From contig WSYJ01000086.1 of assembly GCA_020186115.1 (NCBI GenBank), positions 62,001 to 126,000 on the forward strand: a DNA stretch of 64,000 nt. The letters are read 5' to 3'. The DNA is from Histomonas meleagridis (lineage: Eukaryota; Parabasalia; Tritrichomonadida; Dientamoebidae). Numbering within the stretch: the stretch's first letter is position 1; every line of letters starts with the position of its first letter. Both the position numbers and the translations under genes were made by a program. Below are positions 9,489 through 22,440 of the stretch, one piece after another. The notes beneath the pieces were generated by a model. It saw only the letters and a list, made by a program, of their open reading frames with translations. It ran no database searches and was not told where the DNA came from.

Positions 9489-11654
9489 ATGAAATATAAT
9501 GGATATCCTCAATCAATGATAACATTAATTCACATTGGCACTTTCATCCTCCTCATAAATTTCAGCAAACATGTTTTTATTTCAAATAAATATTATTTAT
9601 ATTCTCTGGCTGAAAATAAAACAATGAACAAGCATGTGCATAACAAAAGCATTCATTACATGCCAAGTAACAAGATTGAACTCATAAAGAGTAAAATATA
9701 TTTACAAAAAATTCAAACAGCAAACAACATAAATCATTTACTGCAATTCGCTTCACTCAATAATTCTCTAAATAACAATAGAATAGGTTTTGAGCATTTC
9801 GTTTCTTCAAATTTAATAATTTCGTATTTTTATTCCAAAATAACTACAATCTTTCATATCCTGCATAATATATATCATTTTAATGAAAGTTTTCAATGTA
9901 ATTTATCAATGAATTGCAGCAATAATATTCTTAAAAATCTACCAAAGATATTTAATGTATTAATTACTTCTATATATTCAAATATAACTTTGTTTGTATT
10001 TATATTTTTTGTTTTTACTTTCTTTTCCAAAATTTATTTTAATCAGAAAATCATTCATCAAAAAAACGAAGTTATTCTGATTTTAATGATTATATTTTTT
10101 GTTAATACAAAGCAATCATATGACGAAGAGACAAAAACACTCACAATATCTGATTCCATTGATTATTCAAATGATTATATGAATGTTACAGAGCACGTTA
10201 TAATTATTAATGTTGGCGAGCTTGAAAGTAATGCATTCAGAGAATGGCCTTTATTAACAACAGTAATAATTGGAGAGTCAGTTGGAAATATAAATAGTGG
10301 AGCGTTTGCATCATGTAAACAATTAAAATATGTCCAATTTCCATATAAATTAATGAGTTCAATTGGAGGTGGTGCATTTACAGAATGCATTTCATTAAAT
10401 AATATTACAATTCGTTGTAATAGCATTAGTGGTAATGCATTTTATAAATGTACAGGACTTGAAACGATAACATTATATGAAGGCGTACGAAATATTGACT
10501 CAGATGCATTCAGAGGGTGTACAAACCTTGTGAATATTTATATACCAAGTTCTGTTACTTCAATTGGAAATGCATTTTTAGAATGTACAGAACTTCAATT
10601 TATTAATGTTTCAGAAGAAAATATTGGATATTCGAATTATGAAAATGATGGCGTTTTATATAATAAAGAAATTACACAAATTATTAGTTATCCGAATATG
10701 AAAAGTAAAACATTTACAATTCCTAATTCAGTCATTTCTATTATGAATTATGCGTTTGCAAGTTGTAATAATTTAGAAAGAATTTTTATTGATGAAAATG
10801 TTCAATATATTAATTCATGTGCATTTGTTAATTGTACATCACTTCAATGTATTCATTTTAATGGAGAAAATTCACCAGAAATACAAAATGATGCATTTGT
10901 TAATATCAATGCGACAAGAGTTATGACAATAGAAACATATCAAAATGAAACATTTGGAAATATGGAAATTACTAAGGGAACAACACTTGACGAATGTCTC
11001 CCGCCAACACTCACATTCACATACACACAAAGTGATACATTCACTAACTCAAATACATTTACTAACATAAATACATTTGCTAATTCAAACACATTTACGA
11101 AATCAAAAAATAATTTTGATTCAAATACTTATGTTAATACATTTTCGATGAATTTTACTTTCGTTAATACTATTACTTTAACTTATTCTTTATCGTTTAT
11201 AAAAACTTTATCAATTTATTATACTTTCTTAAAATCTTATTCAGTTACTTTCATTGAATCTGAAACTAAATATATTTATAGCGATTTCATATATTATAAT
11301 TATACAATTATATATTATCCAGAATATTTTACTTATTATTCTAATTTCTTTTATATTTCTTATATCGAAGATGTAATAATAAACACTAATGATAATAATA
11401 CATTAATTATCATTATAATTGTTGTTGTAATTGTAATAATTATTGTATTTGTAATGATAATTATAATATTTATGATTAAATATCAAAATAAGAAGCGGAA
11501 ACAAAATGAAGAAGAAATGAATATTTCAGATGAAAATAATAATAATATTAATGAAATAGATAATACATTTTCAGTTGGGATTAATAATTCAAATATTGAA
11601 GAAGATCCATTTGCAGACGATTTCAAAGAAGAAAAATTTATCAGTCAGATATAA
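9489..11654 (+). CDS. BspA-like leucine-rich-repeat surface protein with long N-terminal extension
   Basis: A 721-residue protein. From about residue 215 it has LRR_5/BspA repeats (for example SVGNINSGAFASCKQL, NIDSDAFRGCTNL, IMNYAFASCNNLERI). A TFTNSNTF-type stalk follows at about 510-545, then a Tyr-rich juxtamembrane segment, a long hydrophobic helix near 635-660, and a cytoplasmic tail with DPFADDF. Other BspA proteins begin with a signal peptide directly before the first repeats. Here that point matches an internal ATG at 10086 (MIIFFVNTKQS, residue 200). The preceding 199 residues contain two hydrophobic stretches and no repeats. The real start is therefore either 9489 or 10086. Family knowledge: these are surface proteins that often bind host cells or bacteria. 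Confidence 0.8.
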   Translation: MKYNGYPQSMITLIHIGTFILLINFSKHVFISNKYYLYSLAENKTMNKHVHNKSIHYMPSNKIELIKSKIYLQKIQTANNINHLLQFASLNNSLNNNRIGFEHFVSSNLIISYFYSKITTIFHILHNIYHFNESFQCNLSMNCSNNILKNLPKIFNVLITSIYSNITLFVFIFFVFTFFSKIYFNQKIIHQKNEVILILMIIFFVNTKQSYDEETKTLTISDSIDYSNDYMNVTEHVIIINVGELESNAFREWPLLTTVIIGESVGNINSGAFASCKQLKYVQFPYKLMSSIGGGAFTECISLNNITIRCNSISGNAFYKCTGLETITLYEGVRNIDSDAFRGCTNLVNIYIPSSVTSIGNAFLECTELQFINVSEENIGYSNYENDGVLYNKEITQIISYPNMKSKTFTIPNSVISIMNYAFASCNNLERIFIDENVQYINSCAFVNCTSLQCIHFNGENSPEIQNDAFVNINATRVMTIETYQNETFGNMEITKGTTLDECLPPTLTFTYTQSDTFTNSNTFTNINTFANSNTFTKSKNNFDSNTYVNTFSMNFTFVNTITLTYSLSFIKTLSIYYTFLKSYSVTFIESETKYIYSDFIYYNYTIIYYPEYFTYYSNFFYISYIEDVIINTNDNNTLIIIIIVVVIVIIIVFVMIIIIFMIKYQNKKRKQNEEEMNISDENNNNINEIDNTFSVGINNSNIEEDPFADDFKEEKFISQI

Positions 11655-11754
11655 ATAAACATATTTTAAGAACAAAATATTTTAATTTGTTTATTAATTT
11701 AATAAAAACAAACTTTTGTGTTATTTAGAAAATTTTATGCTCATGAAAATAACC

Positions 11755-12004
11755 CAAAGAAATTATTCATTTATGTGAACAAAATCATTCATCATTTAAA
11801 GATGCTTATAAAGAATTAGATACCATAAAAATGATATTTTTCATATTCTTTATGAAAGGAAATTTAATAACTTAGAAGAAAGGAGAAAATGTGTTTATAA
11901 TTATGAAATTTTGTCATTTTTGCTTGATGATGGTATGAAAATCAATAATTCTATTATAAATGAATCAGTAAGAATTGGAAATTTATTTGAGAATAATGAA
12001 TTCA
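11755..12004 (+). pseudogene. DUF3447 fragment
   Basis: A short piece closely related to the DUF3447 gene at about 14380-14630. It includes a segment encoding HLCEQNHSSF and downstream text equivalent to FLLDDGMKINNSIINES, in different frames with internal stops. There is no flanking ankyrin array. The rest of the gap 11655-12291 holds nothing recognisable. Confidence 0.65.
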
Positions 12005-12291
12005 AGTAAAGTTTATCCCATTTCATTCAAAAGCTTTTGAACATTTAATGTAAACACAATCATAATTCAAAATTATTGATCGGTGTTCAACAATATTTAC
12101 CTTATTATATTTGAAGTCAGTGATACTATTTAAACATCATAAAAATCATTTCATATTTAAATTAGCTAATTCAAAACATTTTAAAGTCAAAATGATATTA
12201 TCGTTAACATGATTTCATTTTATTTTATCTGACAACACATAATTTTTAGAGATACATTAAATTAATAAATGTTTTTTATTACACATTTTAT

Positions 12292-13182
12292 TCATAGCCA
12301 ATTGACTTCATCTTCTTTCGCAATATCTTCAACTAAACTATTTACTTCTTCGATTTGCTTTGTACTTGACGTTGTCGTGTCCTTGAATTGTAACTTTGAT
12401 TTCGATTTTTCTTTCTTATTATTACTTTTCACTAAAAATATAACAATTCCAACAATGATCAAAACAAATGCAAATGATCCGCAAATAATTCCAATCAAAG
12501 CATTTGTCGTAATTCCATTTGGCGAATTTTCATTGGAAGTGTAAAACATTGTAAAGAAATTAGAATAATAATTACAATAAGTCGAATAAATAACAATCGT
12601 GTAATTGTAATAAATAAATTCTGTTTCAATATATGAAAATGTCGAATTATTTATATATAATGAAAATGATTTCGTTTTTGTTTCATAAATAGTTAATGAA
12701 TGTGTAATTGATAATGTAATTGTTAATGTATATGAAAATGATAATGAAAATGAAATATCACTTTGAAGTGATGCAGTAAATGTATTCGATTGACCAAATG
12801 AATGCGTTGGAGGTGGTTCGCATGTTCCTTCTGTGTTTTCTTTATCAACATCTAAATTTCCAAATTTACTTCCTACGTATGTTGGATATGTGATAACACT
12901 TGTAAAAACATTAGAAAATGCACTTTCACCAATTTCTGGTTCTGAATCTCCATAATAATAAATGCATTGAAGATTATAACAATTACCAAATGCTGAACCT
13001 TCAATATTTCTTATTCCATATCCAAGTGTTAATGTCGTTAAATTAGAACATAATGCAAATGCTGAACTTCCAATTGTTGTAACTGAATTTGGAATTGTAA
13101 TGTTTTTGATTGATGAACAAAATGAAAATGTATGATAAATGATATTTATATAAATAAAGCTTTTTCTTTCAAAATACCACAT
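12292..13182 (-). CDS. BspA-like surface protein, N-terminally truncated
   Basis: 296 residues from the first ATG (13182). It has only about three LRR_5 repeats (SSIKNITIPNSV, IGSSAFALCSNL, NIEGSAFGNCYNL), a short Thr/Ser stalk, the Tyr-rich juxtamembrane module (FIYYNYTIVIYS), one membrane helix near residues 235-260 and a charged tail. The tail has no DPFADDF. The frame is open upstream to 13302 but without an ATG or a signal peptide. Compared with the 334- and 328-residue BspA copies at 47825 and 49375, the signal peptide and first repeats are missing. It is probably a 5'-truncated, possibly dead copy. Confidence 0.6.
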   Translation of the reverse strand: MWYFERKSFIYINIIYHTFSFCSSIKNITIPNSVTTIGSSAFALCSNLTTLTLGYGIRNIEGSAFGNCYNLQCIYYYGDSEPEIGESAFSNVFTSVITYPTYVGSKFGNLDVDKENTEGTCEPPPTHSFGQSNTFTASLQSDISFSLSFSYTLTITLSITHSLTIYETKTKSFSLYINNSTFSYIETEFIYYNYTIVIYSTYCNYYSNFFTMFYTSNENSPNGITTNALIGIICGSFAFVLIIVGIVIFLVKSNNKKEKSKSKLQFKDTTTSSTKQIEEVNSLVEDIAKEDEVNWL

Positions 13183-13302
13183 GCGATCTACTGATTTGTT
13201 CAATTTATTTATAAAAGTAATGCTGCTAGAGCAGATGCATCTGTTACCGGTAATAGTTCCAGGCACTGTGAAGTTTAATTCTTTCTTTTTGTTCTCCTTC
13301 AA

Positions 13303-13610
13303 GTTCGATTCTTCTCCTTATGTCTTTTGATCTATTTTCCAATCATCATTTGATTAATGATCAAATAAAATCTTTTAAGTATCTTCATTTTTTCAAAACT
13401 TAATATTTCCTACACAGAATAAAATCAAATATTTGATTAGTACAAAGGATACTTCTATCATTCCTGAAAATTCTCTATTTCATTTTGATCAAAATACAAA
13501 AGTATTTTTTGTATAAAGTATACAATATAAACTTAATGTCAATATATGTAAACTATATAAAAAATTGTATGCAAAAATAGCACACAAGAAAGAAATAGCG
13601 TCAATAAATA
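13303..13610. other. Intergenic region, nothing recognised
   Basis: AT-rich gap between the divergent BspA-like and DUF3447 loci. It has no ORF and no AACCGTT-type motif. An initiator-like GTCAATAAATA lies just before the ATG at 13611. Confidence 0.4.
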
Positions 13611-16288
13611 ATGGAACAAAACATGTTTAAAGGAAAACAAGATATTTCTCAATCAATATCTGATATAATATCTTCGTTAAATGATAAAAATATTGAAAAA
13701 TGTATAGTTTCAACACTCAAGTTTTTTGATGAAAATTTTTCTTATTCATTTCATTTTCTTATTTATAAGCTCATATATTCTTATTGTATTCGACAGAACG
13801 GAGATTTGCGTTTATATTTCATATATTTAAAAAATCTAGAAATTAGAGAAGAAAAAATTTTCAAAAGAAATTATGAAATTATAAATGGATTTAAAAATTT
13901 TCTTCTTTCACTTTATTCGAATGATTCATATTATATATTGCATAAGATGTATGAAGAAAAATTAATTGATTCAAACTTTCCGAAAAATACATTATACTTT
14001 GCACATATGATGACACCAGAAGAAATCAAAGAAAATCAATATTCAGACTTTGATTTCCCTCATGATAAATTTGATGAACTCAAAAAAGATGAATGGAAAC
14101 TACATAAACAATTAATTGAAGAAGGACATAATCCAAATGAAATAGCAAAAGTAATTCGAAATGATGAAATTGAAAAACTTCAAAAAATATCATCACAAAC
14201 AGATTTCAATTTTAATAAAGCAATTAGACCATCAATTTATGAAAGATATACATTTATTAATAATGAACATGATATTGTTTCTTTAATTGATTATGCAGCA
14301 TTTTTCGGATCAATAAAATGTTTTAAATATTTACTTATGAATGATGCAAATGTAATTAACACAGGTAAATATGCAATTGCAGGTGGAAACATTGAAATCA
14401 TTCATTTATGTGAACAAAATCATTCAACATTTGAAAATGCATATGAAGCAGCAATTCAATTCCATCGAAATAATGTTTTCCTTTATTTGTATGAAAATAA
14501 AATTAAAGAAATCAATAATTTAGAAGAATTAGGAAAGAAATGTGTTGAGTTTTTTGAATATGAAATTTTTTCATTTTTATTAAAAGAAGGAATGAAAATT
14601 AATGATGATATCATTAATGAAGCAGCAAAAGGCGGTAATTTGTTTCTTGTTAGGAATTTTATAGAAAATAATCAAATTCCAAAAAATATTTTGGCTTATG
14701 CTTCGAGTTCAAATAATGTAGAACTTGTGGATTTTATTACTAAGCAAAATGGATTCGATATTAATGCAAAAGATGTACATTAAATTGTTTTGATGAATGT
14801 TTAAAATATTTGGGTCATAGTTTAAAATTTTGATATTATTTTTTAATAAGTTGGACAGCACTTATGTATGCATCTTTCAATGGTCACACAGAAATAGTTA
14901 AATTACTTCTTGAACAAGAAGGAATTGATATCAATGCTAAAGATATTTGTCTGTTTTATTTGATATTTGTTTTAATAATTTTTTATTTCAAAATAATATT
15001 TGGAAATTATTTAAATTATTTGATACAGCACTTATTGATGCATCTTACAATGGTAATACAGAAATAGTTGAATTACTTCTTGAACAAGAAGGAATTGATG
15101 TTAATGCTCAAGATTTTAATTTGTTTTATATGAAATTTATATAAATAATTTGAAATTTCAAAATAATATTTGGAAATTATTTAAATCATTTAATACAGCA
15201 CTTATTAAAGTAATTGAAAATAATCACTTAGATATAGTTAAATTACTTCTTGAACAAGAAGGAATTGATGTTAATATTAAAAATTTTTAATAATATTTTT
15301 TGATGTTTTTACTTAAAAATTAAAATTTCGTAAAAATTTATGGATTTTATATATAAAATTTGAAGCATCACTTTTAATTGGATGTGAAAAAGGTTATACA
15401 AATATTGTCCAAGCACTTCTTGTAAAAAGTAATATTGAACTTAATTTTACTAATATTTTATTTGAATAATTAGTATTTGTTTTTCTTATTTAATATATCA
15501 AAATAATTTTTGGAGTTTTCCTAATTTATTTGAAACAGCTCTTACAATTTCTTGCATAAACCATAATTATGATATCATAAAAATGCTACTACAAAAAGAA
15601 GGCATTGATATAAATAAAAAAAATATTAATTTAATATATTTAAAATTGTTTTCAATCGTGTAAACTTTCAAATTTTCTTGAAACAGCACTTACAATTGCA
15701 TGTTCAGATAATAGTTATGATATTGTAAAATCTTTACTTGGATATCTGAATATTGATGTAAATGTCAAAAATATTTTTATGTTTATTTCGATATAGATAT
15801 CATTTTTTTCATGTTTTAAAATAATATTTGATATTTAAATACATTTATTAAAACACCACTAATGATTTCTTCTCAAAAAGGTTTTATTGATATTGTTGAA
15901 TATCTTCTTAAAGATGAAAACATTGATATTAATATTCAAAATGTTTCAAACTTTTTCATAATTTTTATTTGAATATTTTTATGATCAAGTAAAATACTTG
16001 GAAAATATTTAAAATATTTTGGACAGCTTTAATGCTTGCTTCTCATCATAATCATATTAATATAGTAAAATTATTACTTGAACAAAAAGGAATCGACATC
16101 GATTTACAAACTGTTTTTTTAACATGTTTAAAGTTTATTTTAAATATATTCAGTATGTTATTCTCGTTTGGAATTTCTTACTAAAATTTAAAACAGCAAT
16201 TATGCTTGCTTCTTCAAGAGGATATCAAGAAATTTATAATTTACTTCACGAACATGAAAAAAATAGGTTACCAAATGAAAAATTCTAG
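13611..16288 (+). CDS. DUF3447/ankyrin protein encoded as an ORF followed by nine spaced ankyrin units
   Basis: The 5' part (13611-14783, 390 codons) is uninterrupted. It contains the DUF3447 signature (NPNEIAKVIRNDEIEKL, then SLIDYAAFFGSIKCFKYLL) and a first ankyrin-type unit ending NGFDINAKD at 14774. Nine more ankyrin units follow, each 90 nt from the Thr-Ala-Leu start to the NAKD-like end: 14855-14944, 15025-15114, 15195-15284, 15365-15454, 15535-15624, 15683-15772, 15853-15942 and 16023-16112, then a last unit at 16193-16288 that ends in its own TAG. All units are stop-free in their own frame, but frames differ because spacers of 80 nt (58 nt once) separate them. Ankyrin proteins mediate protein-protein contacts. 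Whether one continuous protein is made depends on removal of the spacers, which the sequence does not prove. If they are not removed, the product ends at 14783. Confidence 0.6.
14775..16192 (+). repeat. 170-nt lattice of 90-nt ankyrin units and 80-nt spacers
   Basis: Spacers are 14775-14854, 14945-15024, 15115-15194, 15285-15364, 15455-15534, 15625-15682 (58 nt), 15773-15852, 15943-16022 and 16113-16192. Eight of nine are exactly 80 nt even though the units have diverged strongly. A TG dinucleotide lies 24 nt before every unit (TGG in six, TGA in two, TGT in the short one). The seven codons just before each unit are stop-free in the unit's frame. The typical spacer has TTTCAAAATAATATTTGGA in its second half. 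No GTATGT donor or ACTAACACACAG acceptor, the known trichomonad intron signals, is present. Confidence 0.7.
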
Positions 16289-20512: not shown

Positions 20513-22440
20513 ATGAAACATTTTCGAAACAGAAGAAAAATTAAAGACAATAGTGATGAAAACCTAGAAGCGTTACAGTCTATTGAACAAAGTGTATTTG
20601 AATTAAATGAAAAAAATATTGATGAATCAGTATGTTCTTTCATGACTTATTTTTCCAAAGAATATTCATATTCATATAATTTAGCTTTATGCAGATTTAT
20701 ATATTCATATTTTGTATCAAATGACAATTACAAATTATGTTTTGAATATTTAAAAATGGTTCAAAAGAAAGAGAAATTCTGAATGATTCAAATAAAAAAT
20801 CAATGATTGATATCTTTATAGATCTTCTTATTATTAATATAAAAACTCAAGGGTCAAGTTATCTTCTAGAAAAAATGCTTGAAAACAAAATGATTAGTTC
20901 GGACAAACTCAAATTCAAGAAATTACCATATTTTGTATATCTGATTGATGAAAATGATTTGTGTGATTCAGATTATTCTCTGATATCAGAAAATTATGAA
21001 GAACTATCAAAGAATGATTGAACTTCATAAGAAACTTATTAAAGAAGGAGTAAATCCAAATGAAATTGCAAAAATAATTCGAAATGATGAAATAGAAGAA
21101 CTTCAAGAAATATCATCACAAAATGATTTTGATTTTAATCAATTCATTGAACCATCACTTTATGAGAGATGTGATTTTATTAATAAAGAAGATGTTTCAT
21201 TAATTGATTATGCAGTATTTTTTGGATCAATTAAATGTTTTAGATATTTATTATTAAATTGTTATTGTAATCATGCAAAAACAGGTAAATATGCAGCTGC
21301 TGGTGGTAACTTAGAAATGATACATTTATGTGAACAAAATCATTTAAGTTTTGATGATTCATATGATTTATTAATAATGCTTCATCGGAATGATGTATTT
21401 ATTTATCTTTATGAAAATAAACTCATTTATATAAAAGATTTAACATTATTAGGTGATTTATGTATATCGCATAATAATTTTGAGATTTTCTCATTTTTAG
21501 AAAGTGAAGGAATGGAAATCAATAAATAAATGTTTATCACGGCAATTCAAACAGGTAATTTATTACTTTTAAAACACTTACTTCAAAAGATGCCTGTTAA
21601 AACTTATGTTTACGAAATTTTAACATTTTCAGGTAACGAAGAACTTTTTAATTACCTTAGAATCAATAAATATATTAAGTTTAAGTATAAAGAAGGTTTA
21701 TAACTTTTATTTATGATTGTGTATTTTCTTTGGAATTTCTTATTAATGCTAAAGATAAAATTTATTTTAATAATTTTTTATTTCAAAATAATATTTGGAA
21801 ATTATTTAAATTATTTAAAACAGCACTTATGTTAGCATCAAAAAATGGTCATACAGAAACAGTAAAATTACTTCTTGAACAAGAAGGAATTGATATTAAT
21901 GCTAAAGATATTTATTTGTTTAATTTGTGCTTTATTTTGATAATTTGATATTTCAAAATAATATTTGGAAATTATTTAAATTATTTTATACAGCACTTAT
22001 TAGAGCATCTTCAGAAGGTTATACAGAAACAGTTAAATTACTTCTTGAACAAAAAGGAATTGATATTAATGCTAAAGATATTTATTTGTTTTATTTGATG
22101 TTTTTTTCGTTCATCTAAAATATCAAAACAATATATGGAAATTATTTAAAATATTTATGTACTTATTTATGCGTCTGAAAGACGGTCTGATTTTGGCTAT
22201 ACAGAAATAGTAAAGCTACTCATTGAATAAAAAGGAATCGATATTTATGCAAAACATATTTATTTTTATGTTTTTGGATATCTAATTAATTTTTGGAAAA
22301 CATAAAAATTATTCGGCACTGCACTTGATGTAGCAACTTCAAATGTTCACAAAGAAATTAAGGAAATTCTTGATCAAAAACAAAAGAATGATGAGGAAGA
22401 AGAAGTGTATATTGAAGTCTTTGATGAAATAGATTACTAA
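20513..22440 (+). pseudogene. Decayed DUF3447/ankyrin gene
   Basis: Same architecture as the locus at 13611, but broken. Frame 20513-20782 shifts at about 20775 into 20803-21021, shifts again at about 21018 into 20996-21529, and then meets a TAA at 21527-21529, after which the same frame continues. DUF3447 text is clear (NPNEIAKIIRNDEIEEL, SLIDYAVFFGSIKCFRYLL). Spaced ankyrin units follow (TALMLASKNGHTETVKLLL and TALIRASSEGYTETVKLLL). A later unit contains an in-frame TAA (22227-22229). The last unit ends with an acidic tail and a stop at 22440. At least two frameshifts and two nonsense changes make it a pseudogene of the same family. Confidence 0.75.
21757..22317 (+). repeat. Spacer repeats in the decayed ankyrin locus
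   Basis: Spacers at 21757-21819 (63 nt), 21910-21989 (80 nt), 22080-about 22159 and 22258-22317 (60 nt) are close relatives of those at 14775-16192. They share the TTTCAAAATAATATTTGGA core and the TGG 24 nt before the next unit. Lengths vary more here than in the first locus, in keeping with decay. Confidence 0.6.

Follow-up and report, generated by a model that had tools for sequence, protein, structure and literature searches.

Ankyrin-repeat genes of the poultry parasite Histomonas meleagridis contain 90-nucleotide (nt) repeat units set apart by spacers, most of them 80 nt long, and each 80-nt spacer is composed of four modules in which a 17-nt A/T-rich insert is followed by one codon. Taken together, the four codons mostly read x-x-G-x, a normal ankyrin linker. 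Judged from the DNA, it is likely that every one of these single codons is an exon left behind when the 17-mer before it is excised as an ultrashort intron of fixed length, and that units and linkers are thereby joined into an ankyrin protein.

The focal gene occupies positions 13611-16288 of the window, by which we mean the whole 64,000-nt stretch that was analysed. Its reading frame starts with an ATG at 13611 and is open up to a stop at 14781-14783. The features of this gene, and of a second copy in the window, are as follows.

13611..14774, + strand: uninterrupted first part of 388 codons, an N-terminal domain with DUF3447 and ankyrin matches, ending in unit 1 (14685-14774)
14775..14854, + strand: spacer S1, with 17-mers at 14775-14791, 14795-14811, 14815-14831 and 14835-14851 and codons GAT GGG GAT TGG (D G D W)
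14855..14944, + strand: ankyrin unit 2, 30 codons
14945..15024, + strand: spacer S2, four times 17-mer plus codon, GAT TTT GGA GAT (D F G D)
15025..15114, + strand: ankyrin unit 3
15115..15194, + strand: spacer S3, codons GAA GAA GGA AAT (E E G N)
15195..15284, + strand: ankyrin unit 4
15285..15364, + strand: spacer S4, codons GAT AAA GGA GAA (D K G E)
15365..15454, + strand: ankyrin unit 5
15455..15534, + strand: spacer S5, codons AGT AAT GGA GAA (S N G E)
15535..15624, + strand: ankyrin unit 6
15625..15682, + strand: spacer S6, 58 nt, the sole spacer of the focal gene without a clean 17+3 parse
15683..15772, + strand: ankyrin unit 7
15773..15852, + strand: spacer S7, codons GAT CAT GAT AAA (D H D K)
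15853..15942, + strand: ankyrin unit 8
15943..16022, + strand: spacer S8, codons AAT TAT GGA TGG (N Y G W)
16023..16112, + strand: ankyrin unit 9
16113..16192, + strand: spacer S9, codons AAA TCA GGA AAA (K S G K)
16193..16288, + strand: ankyrin unit 10 with the C-terminus and the TAG stop
20996..22440, + strand: a further copy of this gene type, decayed; its spacers are alike in kind, and stops break its N-terminal part

A sequence-only reading of this gene had described nine ankyrin units of 90 nt; the length holds, and the number rises to ten when the closing unit of the first part, 14685-14774, is counted. Its other measurements were confirmed. All ten units (starting at 14685, 14855, 15025, 15195, 15365, 15535, 15683, 15853, 16023 and 16193) are free of stops in their own frames, S1-S5 and S7-S9 are 80 nt and S6 is 58 nt, making nine spacers in total, and the last unit is closed by a normal stop, with ...PNEKF followed by TAG at 16286-16288. 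The spacers also break the frame between units as had been described: 80 nt shifts the frame, and reading on from the upstream unit runs into a stop in 125 of the 207 distinct 80-nt spacers sampled from the genome (see below). Of these 207, 149 have one or more open frames of their own. The 170-nt period was detected independently by TRF at 14855-15275, which is part of the focal array, and at 21761-22157 in the decayed copy. Six of the eight regular spacers have Gly as the third linker residue, in line with the x-x-G-x that links ..NAKD to TAL.. in ankyrin repeats. A near-identical paralogue on contig C55 has 80 nt at the place of S6, 22 nt more than the focal gene; S6 either has lost sequence recently or tests the strictness of the 17-nt rule. 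The decayed copy retains few units, and its 63- and 80-nt spacers can still be read by eye as 17+3 modules.

Related loci were identified by searching the genome (43.28 Mb in 121 contigs) with a two-unit probe, which resulted in at least 234 scored matches, the probe's own place included, many of them stepping by exactly 170 nt. A search with the 388-residue N-terminal domain gave at least 108 matches, of which 97 are without an internal stop by our own count. A sample, not a random draw, was then put together from the window, the top 30 matches at the DNA level and 20 of the 108 loci found with the N-terminal domain. It yielded 366 units, 320 spacers, 207 distinct 80-nt spacers and 40 arrays with three or more units. 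One array, at C75:597611, has 14 units and spacers of 80 nt throughout. Because spacers were counted only between recognisable units, badly decayed arrays are under-sampled. Spacer length is regular beyond chance in the sampled loci, where 252 of 320 spacers are 80 nt, and 279 of the 320 lengths fall in the series 12+17n. The starting clues to the anatomy were the two main lengths, 80 and 63 nt, which lie one 17-nt block apart, and the occurrence of variable triplets at fixed places.

When the 18 phases of a 20-nt period were scanned over the 207 distinct 80-nt spacers from 40 arrays, the triplets at 18-20, 38-40, 58-60 and 78-80 stood out. None of these 828 triplets is a stop, Gly is encoded at slot 3 in 172 of 207 spacers (83%), and the top column entropy is 1.13 compared with 0.42-0.88. 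Among the 18 phases this one alone joins zero stops, slot-3 Gly and the highest variability; phases 1 and 14 are also stop-free, but with low variability and without Gly, and phase 17 contains 411 stops. At every other one of the 78 triplet positions in 80-nt spacers, Gly reaches at most about 4%, in a scan for which, as for the G+C figures and the non-80-nt parses given below, a few overlapping units are doubled or merged in the underlying set, with no effect on the conclusions. The same phase was recovered in the 43 diverged spacers (less than 80% identity to the consensus), with no stops in 172 triplets, Gly in 30 of 43 and again the highest entropy. Column shuffles of all 207 spacers produced a mean of 43.6 stops and a minimum of 28 in 1000 shuffles, and those of the diverged set a mean of 13.1 and a minimum of 7, against zero observed in either case. 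If only one spacer was taken from each of the 40 arrays, which limits relatedness, there were still no stops, and the shuffles gave a mean of 8.9 and a minimum of 2 (500 shuffles). Base composition follows the same division, as G+C in the diverged spacers is 11% in the 17-mers and 32% in the linker codons, next to 28% in the sampled units. Since contiguous reading is impossible and the linker codons are constrained, the 17-mers must either leave before translation or be skipped during it.

Even in strongly diverged spacers the linker codons contain no stop and retain Gly, which contradicts a tandem duplication without function, one of the options raised earlier. The same findings weigh against the possibility that a coding linker was invaded by 17-mers and its product then lost, the 170-nt unit going on to spread and diverge as repeated DNA, with expression confined to the first part of the gene, up to the first stop. 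Several observations are in keeping with such relics: most of the 108 listed N-terminal copies have a contiguous frame of about 380-450 amino acids that ends not far behind unit 1, four proteins of a related species (P0001-P0004) end right behind unit 1, a decayed copy is present in the window, and pN/pS is 0.74-0.79 for the units compared with 0.61 in a shifted frame. The dN/dS check suggested earlier, run here as pN/pS, was thus equivocal, with core codons at 0.60 and a second shifted frame at 1.12. We nevertheless regard relics as unlikely, given stop-free triplets exactly at the linker-codon positions and coding-like C-termini, about a dozen arrays closing with a protein-like C-terminus and a stop, with no spacer there. 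Stops in the units themselves are also depleted, 16 of 308 distinct units having one compared with 144 in column shuffles, a count for which the profile search mildly favours stop-free units; the earlier view that the units are maintained as coding sequence is upheld.

Spacers of other lengths follow the same arrangement to a considerable extent. The 63-nt spacers (21 distinct) consist of three 17-mers and four codons; their codon slots are free of stops, and 19 of the 21 have Gly in the third. A length of 46 nt corresponds to two 17-mers and four codons, 60 to three and three, 83 mostly to four 17-mers and five codons, and 100 to five and five. For 32 of the 58 distinct non-80-nt spacers the parse uses 17-mers only, and the remaining 26 either call for an insert of 16 or 18 nt or give a poor parse; these parses were made with a model trained on the 80-nt class and are hence not independent, as the phase scans are. 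Spacers of 64, 79, 81 and 82 nt mostly need an insert of 16 or 18 nt, or two such inserts, often located in runs of A or T, and lengths of 58, 67, 74, 84, 88, 137 and a few others have no clean 17+3 parse. One locus, L029 (C72:129427-132763), has many 81- and 82-nt spacers, several of them arising from one extra base in A/T runs, which could be long-read assembly error or real 18-nt inserts. At the other extreme, linkers of 280, 180, 140 and 100 nt in L055 (C120:1704467 region) correspond to 14, 9, 7 and 5 modules with very diverse 17-mers, the flanking units having been found at a low score threshold (10). The module codons of this locus contain no stops in 35 and have the highest G+C of all phases, with six other phases stop-free too and the rest holding up to 20 stops; its linkers seem to grow by duplication of 20-nt modules. 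Another subfamily uses ATATGTTTTAATAATTT modules, and none of the 47 triplets that follow this exact 17-mer in the fetched loci, overlapping loci included, is a stop.

If the units and the four single codons are joined, the result is an ankyrin repeat of about 33-34 residues with a D-x-x-G-x-T-A-L linker and an E-I-V-K-L-L-L helix. The joined reading of L044, a paralogue with 14 units, is 819 residues long and contains 13 Pfam Ank stretches (417.8 bits); among the best 120 of 4913 database hits, no relative exceeds 57% identity to it. Uninterrupted ankyrin ORFs in the same genome (L073-L077, five chosen regions) have Gly as the second residue before T-x-L in 25 of 40 linkers picked by regular expression, a few of which are clearly not linkers, and L077 has similar repeats whose linker is four residues long (NAKN-TLGQ-TAL). 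The ORFs of P0012 and P0010, both proteins of a related species, cross a spacer, and back-translation by hand places Gly exactly at the predicted slot of the 63- and 83-nt spacers; in a third protein, P0005, Gly is off by one and the downstream unit is not visible. P0012 and P0001 are 51-66% identical to their best matches in this genome among the top matches. Annotated ankyrin proteins of Tritrichomonas foetus (P0020) and T. musculus (P0021) have hydrophobic inserts between repeats, which measure about 51 and 39 nt by hand from unit end to T-P-L and are not 12 plus multiples of 17; these proteins possibly carry inserts of other lengths.

The residues that vary are those of the linker codons and of unit positions 4, 5, 8, 9, 11, 12 and 22; these are largely binding-surface positions of ankyrin repeats. 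We read the loci as a large, diversifying family of predicted binding proteins. A comparison of the focal gene with its C55 paralogue, in which the last unit was compared in part, gave differences at 5 of 832 sites in the units, 14 of 544 in the 17-mers and 11 of 96 in the linker codons. This contrast may partly reflect recombination, because 7 of the 11 linker-codon differences and 7 of the 14 17-mer differences adjoin an extra repeat in the C55 paralogue. In the N-terminal part (13611-14774 against C55:726528-727691), 13 of 14 differences were scored as non-synonymous, two of them in one codon, which suggests relaxed or diversifying selection on that part. In one subfamily (L058-L067 and L072), profile searches make the N-terminal domain look split near residue 297; this reading was rejected, as the loci read have an in-frame, variable, low-complexity loop there and no insert.

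The 17-mers have a consensus of about RTWYRTTTTAATAATTT, and the diverse set from L055 gives about R-T-W-Y-R-T-T-T-T-A-A-T-A-A-T-T-T. Among the 172 17-mers of the diverged spacers, the first two bases are AT, GT or AA in 144 and the last two are TT in 126. GT..AG ends occur in one of the 172, in agreement with the earlier statement that the canonical intron ends of trichomonads are absent from the spacers. The branch site CTAAC, fused in the Trichomonas style, is not kept; there is a TTTAAT-like tendency only, and TAAC occurs in 4 of 35 L055 17-mers. No canonical intron of the form GTATGT-N4-34-CTAACACACAG was found in the genome, and the form GTATGT-N40-70-ACTAACACACAG has one match of 71 nt, at L031 (C91:123554-123624), which suggests that standard introns coexist in this genome. 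Two copies of an ordinary-looking U2 with GUAGUA were identified, together with one equally ordinary-looking U6 with ACAGAGA (43.7 bits against a cut-off of 44), and the search of the genome for U1 returned no match, the control being equally silent. When six window spacers with their flanks, as distinct from single 17-mers, were folded, five did no better than shuffled sequences (z between -0.8 and 0.5) and one had z = -3.8. Searches of viral and prokaryote collections for DNA with the exact pattern found none.

Because the array cannot be translated contiguously, and the signal at the level of the protein requires the codons to be joined, we favour removal from RNA. We infer that the 17-mers are removed, and excision from the transcript as ultrashort introns is the likeliest route. 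Each codon of the four-codon linker would then sit behind an intron of its own, one-codon exons would be left, and units and linkers would fuse into one long ankyrin repeat protein. The machinery could be a spliceosome acting on degenerate signals, a guess prompted by the order of motifs in the 17-mers, which recalls the type B introns of Trichomonas, but the 3' end is without AG. Points against excision are the ordinary U2 and U6 beside ends that are not GT-AG, the misfit of S6, the 26 of 58 non-80-nt spacers without a pure 17-mer parse, the 149 of 207 spacers with an open frame of their own, the pN/pS values, the unsplit Ras-family matches described below, a genome paper that predicts no more than one intron per gene, and the want of a relative above 57% identity to the joined L044 product among the best 120 hits.

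If the 17-mers instead stay in the mRNA, the ribosome would skip each in turn by serial programmed bypassing and decode one codon between hops. This option, raised in the sequence-only reading, is retained as a rival of low probability: it predicts the same protein and the same codon constraint, and it accords with a fixed length and the lack of a splice-site consensus. The matched take-off and landing codons that would go with it are absent, as just 20 of 621 pairs of neighbouring linker codons are identical (4 of 129 in the diverged spacers), no common RNA fold was seen in the window spacers, and four hops per linker, some 32 or more per gene, would need a very high efficiency. A -1 programmed frameshift at T_TTA_AAT near the 3' end of the spacer, seen by eye, was rejected since the upstream frame stops earlier in 120 of 207 spacers and in 34 of the 43 diverged ones. 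It is very improbable that the downstream units are a silent store of cassettes that donate repeats to an expressed copy by gene conversion; such a store would suit the hypervariability of unit and linker codons, the near-identity of units inside a single array and the many loci, but donated cassettes would carry 17-mers along, no 17-mer-free spacer exists in the sample (the smallest is 46 nt), and the codon constraint inside spacers would be left unexplained. Least probable is an intron, conventional or not, that takes up the whole 80-nt spacer. The fixed length, the A/T-richness and the upstream-frame stops in 36 of 43 diverged copies would allow it, but the ends are wrong for GT-AG, four triplets with 0 of 828 stops and slot-3 Gly in 172 of 207 spacers would be thrown away, and the series of lengths, from 46, 63, 80 and 100 nt on to 280 by steps of 17 or 20, would go unexplained. 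Of the earlier proposal of a fixed-length intron, then, what survives is that something of fixed length is removed or skipped, the element being 17 nt rather than 80 and alternating with retained codons.

Ultrashort introns of this kind would be numerous. A 31-place pattern for the spacer end, allowing up to two mismatches, occurs 3809 times in the genome and not once when read backwards, and in the small part of the 3809 that was listed no match has a stop in the last linker codon. Assuming three to four inserts per spacer end, the genome would hold roughly 11,000 to 15,000 inserts, decayed copies included. As far as was looked, they are not spread over ordinary genes, because Ras-family genes had no stops or visible splits in 150 listed matches (150 of 666 candidates scored). 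The chances seem to us evenly balanced that an RNA-processing or decoding activity removes measured 17-nt A/U-rich segments without GU-AG ends, thousands per genome, leaving exons of a single codon, while the modules multiply by 20-nt duplication and the linkers lengthen by single residues, reaching 14 codons in L055. Were the 17-mers excised, the bulk of a very large ankyrin family would escape gene prediction, and a hidden and very frequent form of gene interruption, differing from known introns, would either challenge minimum-size models of splicing or indicate another machinery. We found no earlier report of such inserts in the accessible portion of the open-licence PMC literature.

Several known systems share features with these genes. 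Translational bypassing, as in phage T4 gene 60 and the byps of Magnusiomyces mitochondria, involves longer elements with matched take-off and landing codons, and we know of no serial single-codon arrangement among them; bypass elements and 17-mers are alike as untranslated segments inside a reading frame, the 17-mers being shorter and without matched codons. Nor are arrays of introns interleaved with single codons known to us from Stentor. In plants, microexons are isolated exons between ordinary introns and are not known to form arrays. Like the linker codons they are extremely short, and sizes down to 1 nt are described (PMC8831610). The introns of Stentor coeruleus, reported as 15-16 nt and mostly with a GU start and an AG end (PMC9505925), resemble the 17-mers in their near-fixed tiny length, and most of them differ in their ends. 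The nonconventional introns of euglenids lack conserved splice borders and have their ends joined by a stable secondary structure (PMC6221363, PMC4770533); the 17-mers are likewise without conserved borders, and unlike them have a fixed length and no such fold in five of six spacers. If excised, the 17-mers would be introns near the smallest length known, that of Stentor (PMC9505925), without the usual end dinucleotides and with 3-nt exons between them, and more than an order of magnitude commoner than the 573 introns, at most one per gene, that the H. meleagridis genome paper reports as predicted (PMC8529796). The closest resemblance in motif order is to the type B spliceosomal introns of Trichomonas vaginalis, reported as 25-26 nt with the consensus GTWYWDN{7}TCTAACH{1,2}AACAG (PMC6260720). 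Both are ultrashort and have a parabasalid host, and the 17-mers run RTWYRT-TTTAAT-AATTT, which may be read as the type B consensus without its 7-nt gap and with C changed to T and AG to TT, a correspondence offered without a claim of membership; by our reckoning, GTATGT, TCTAAC and AACAG would together total 17 nt. The 17-mers differ from type B introns in being 17 nt long, in starting with A or G, in not keeping CTAAC, in mostly ending in TTT, and in being arrayed with 3-nt exons by the thousand per genome. Were spliceosomal removal proved, the finding would become a variant of ultrashort introns.
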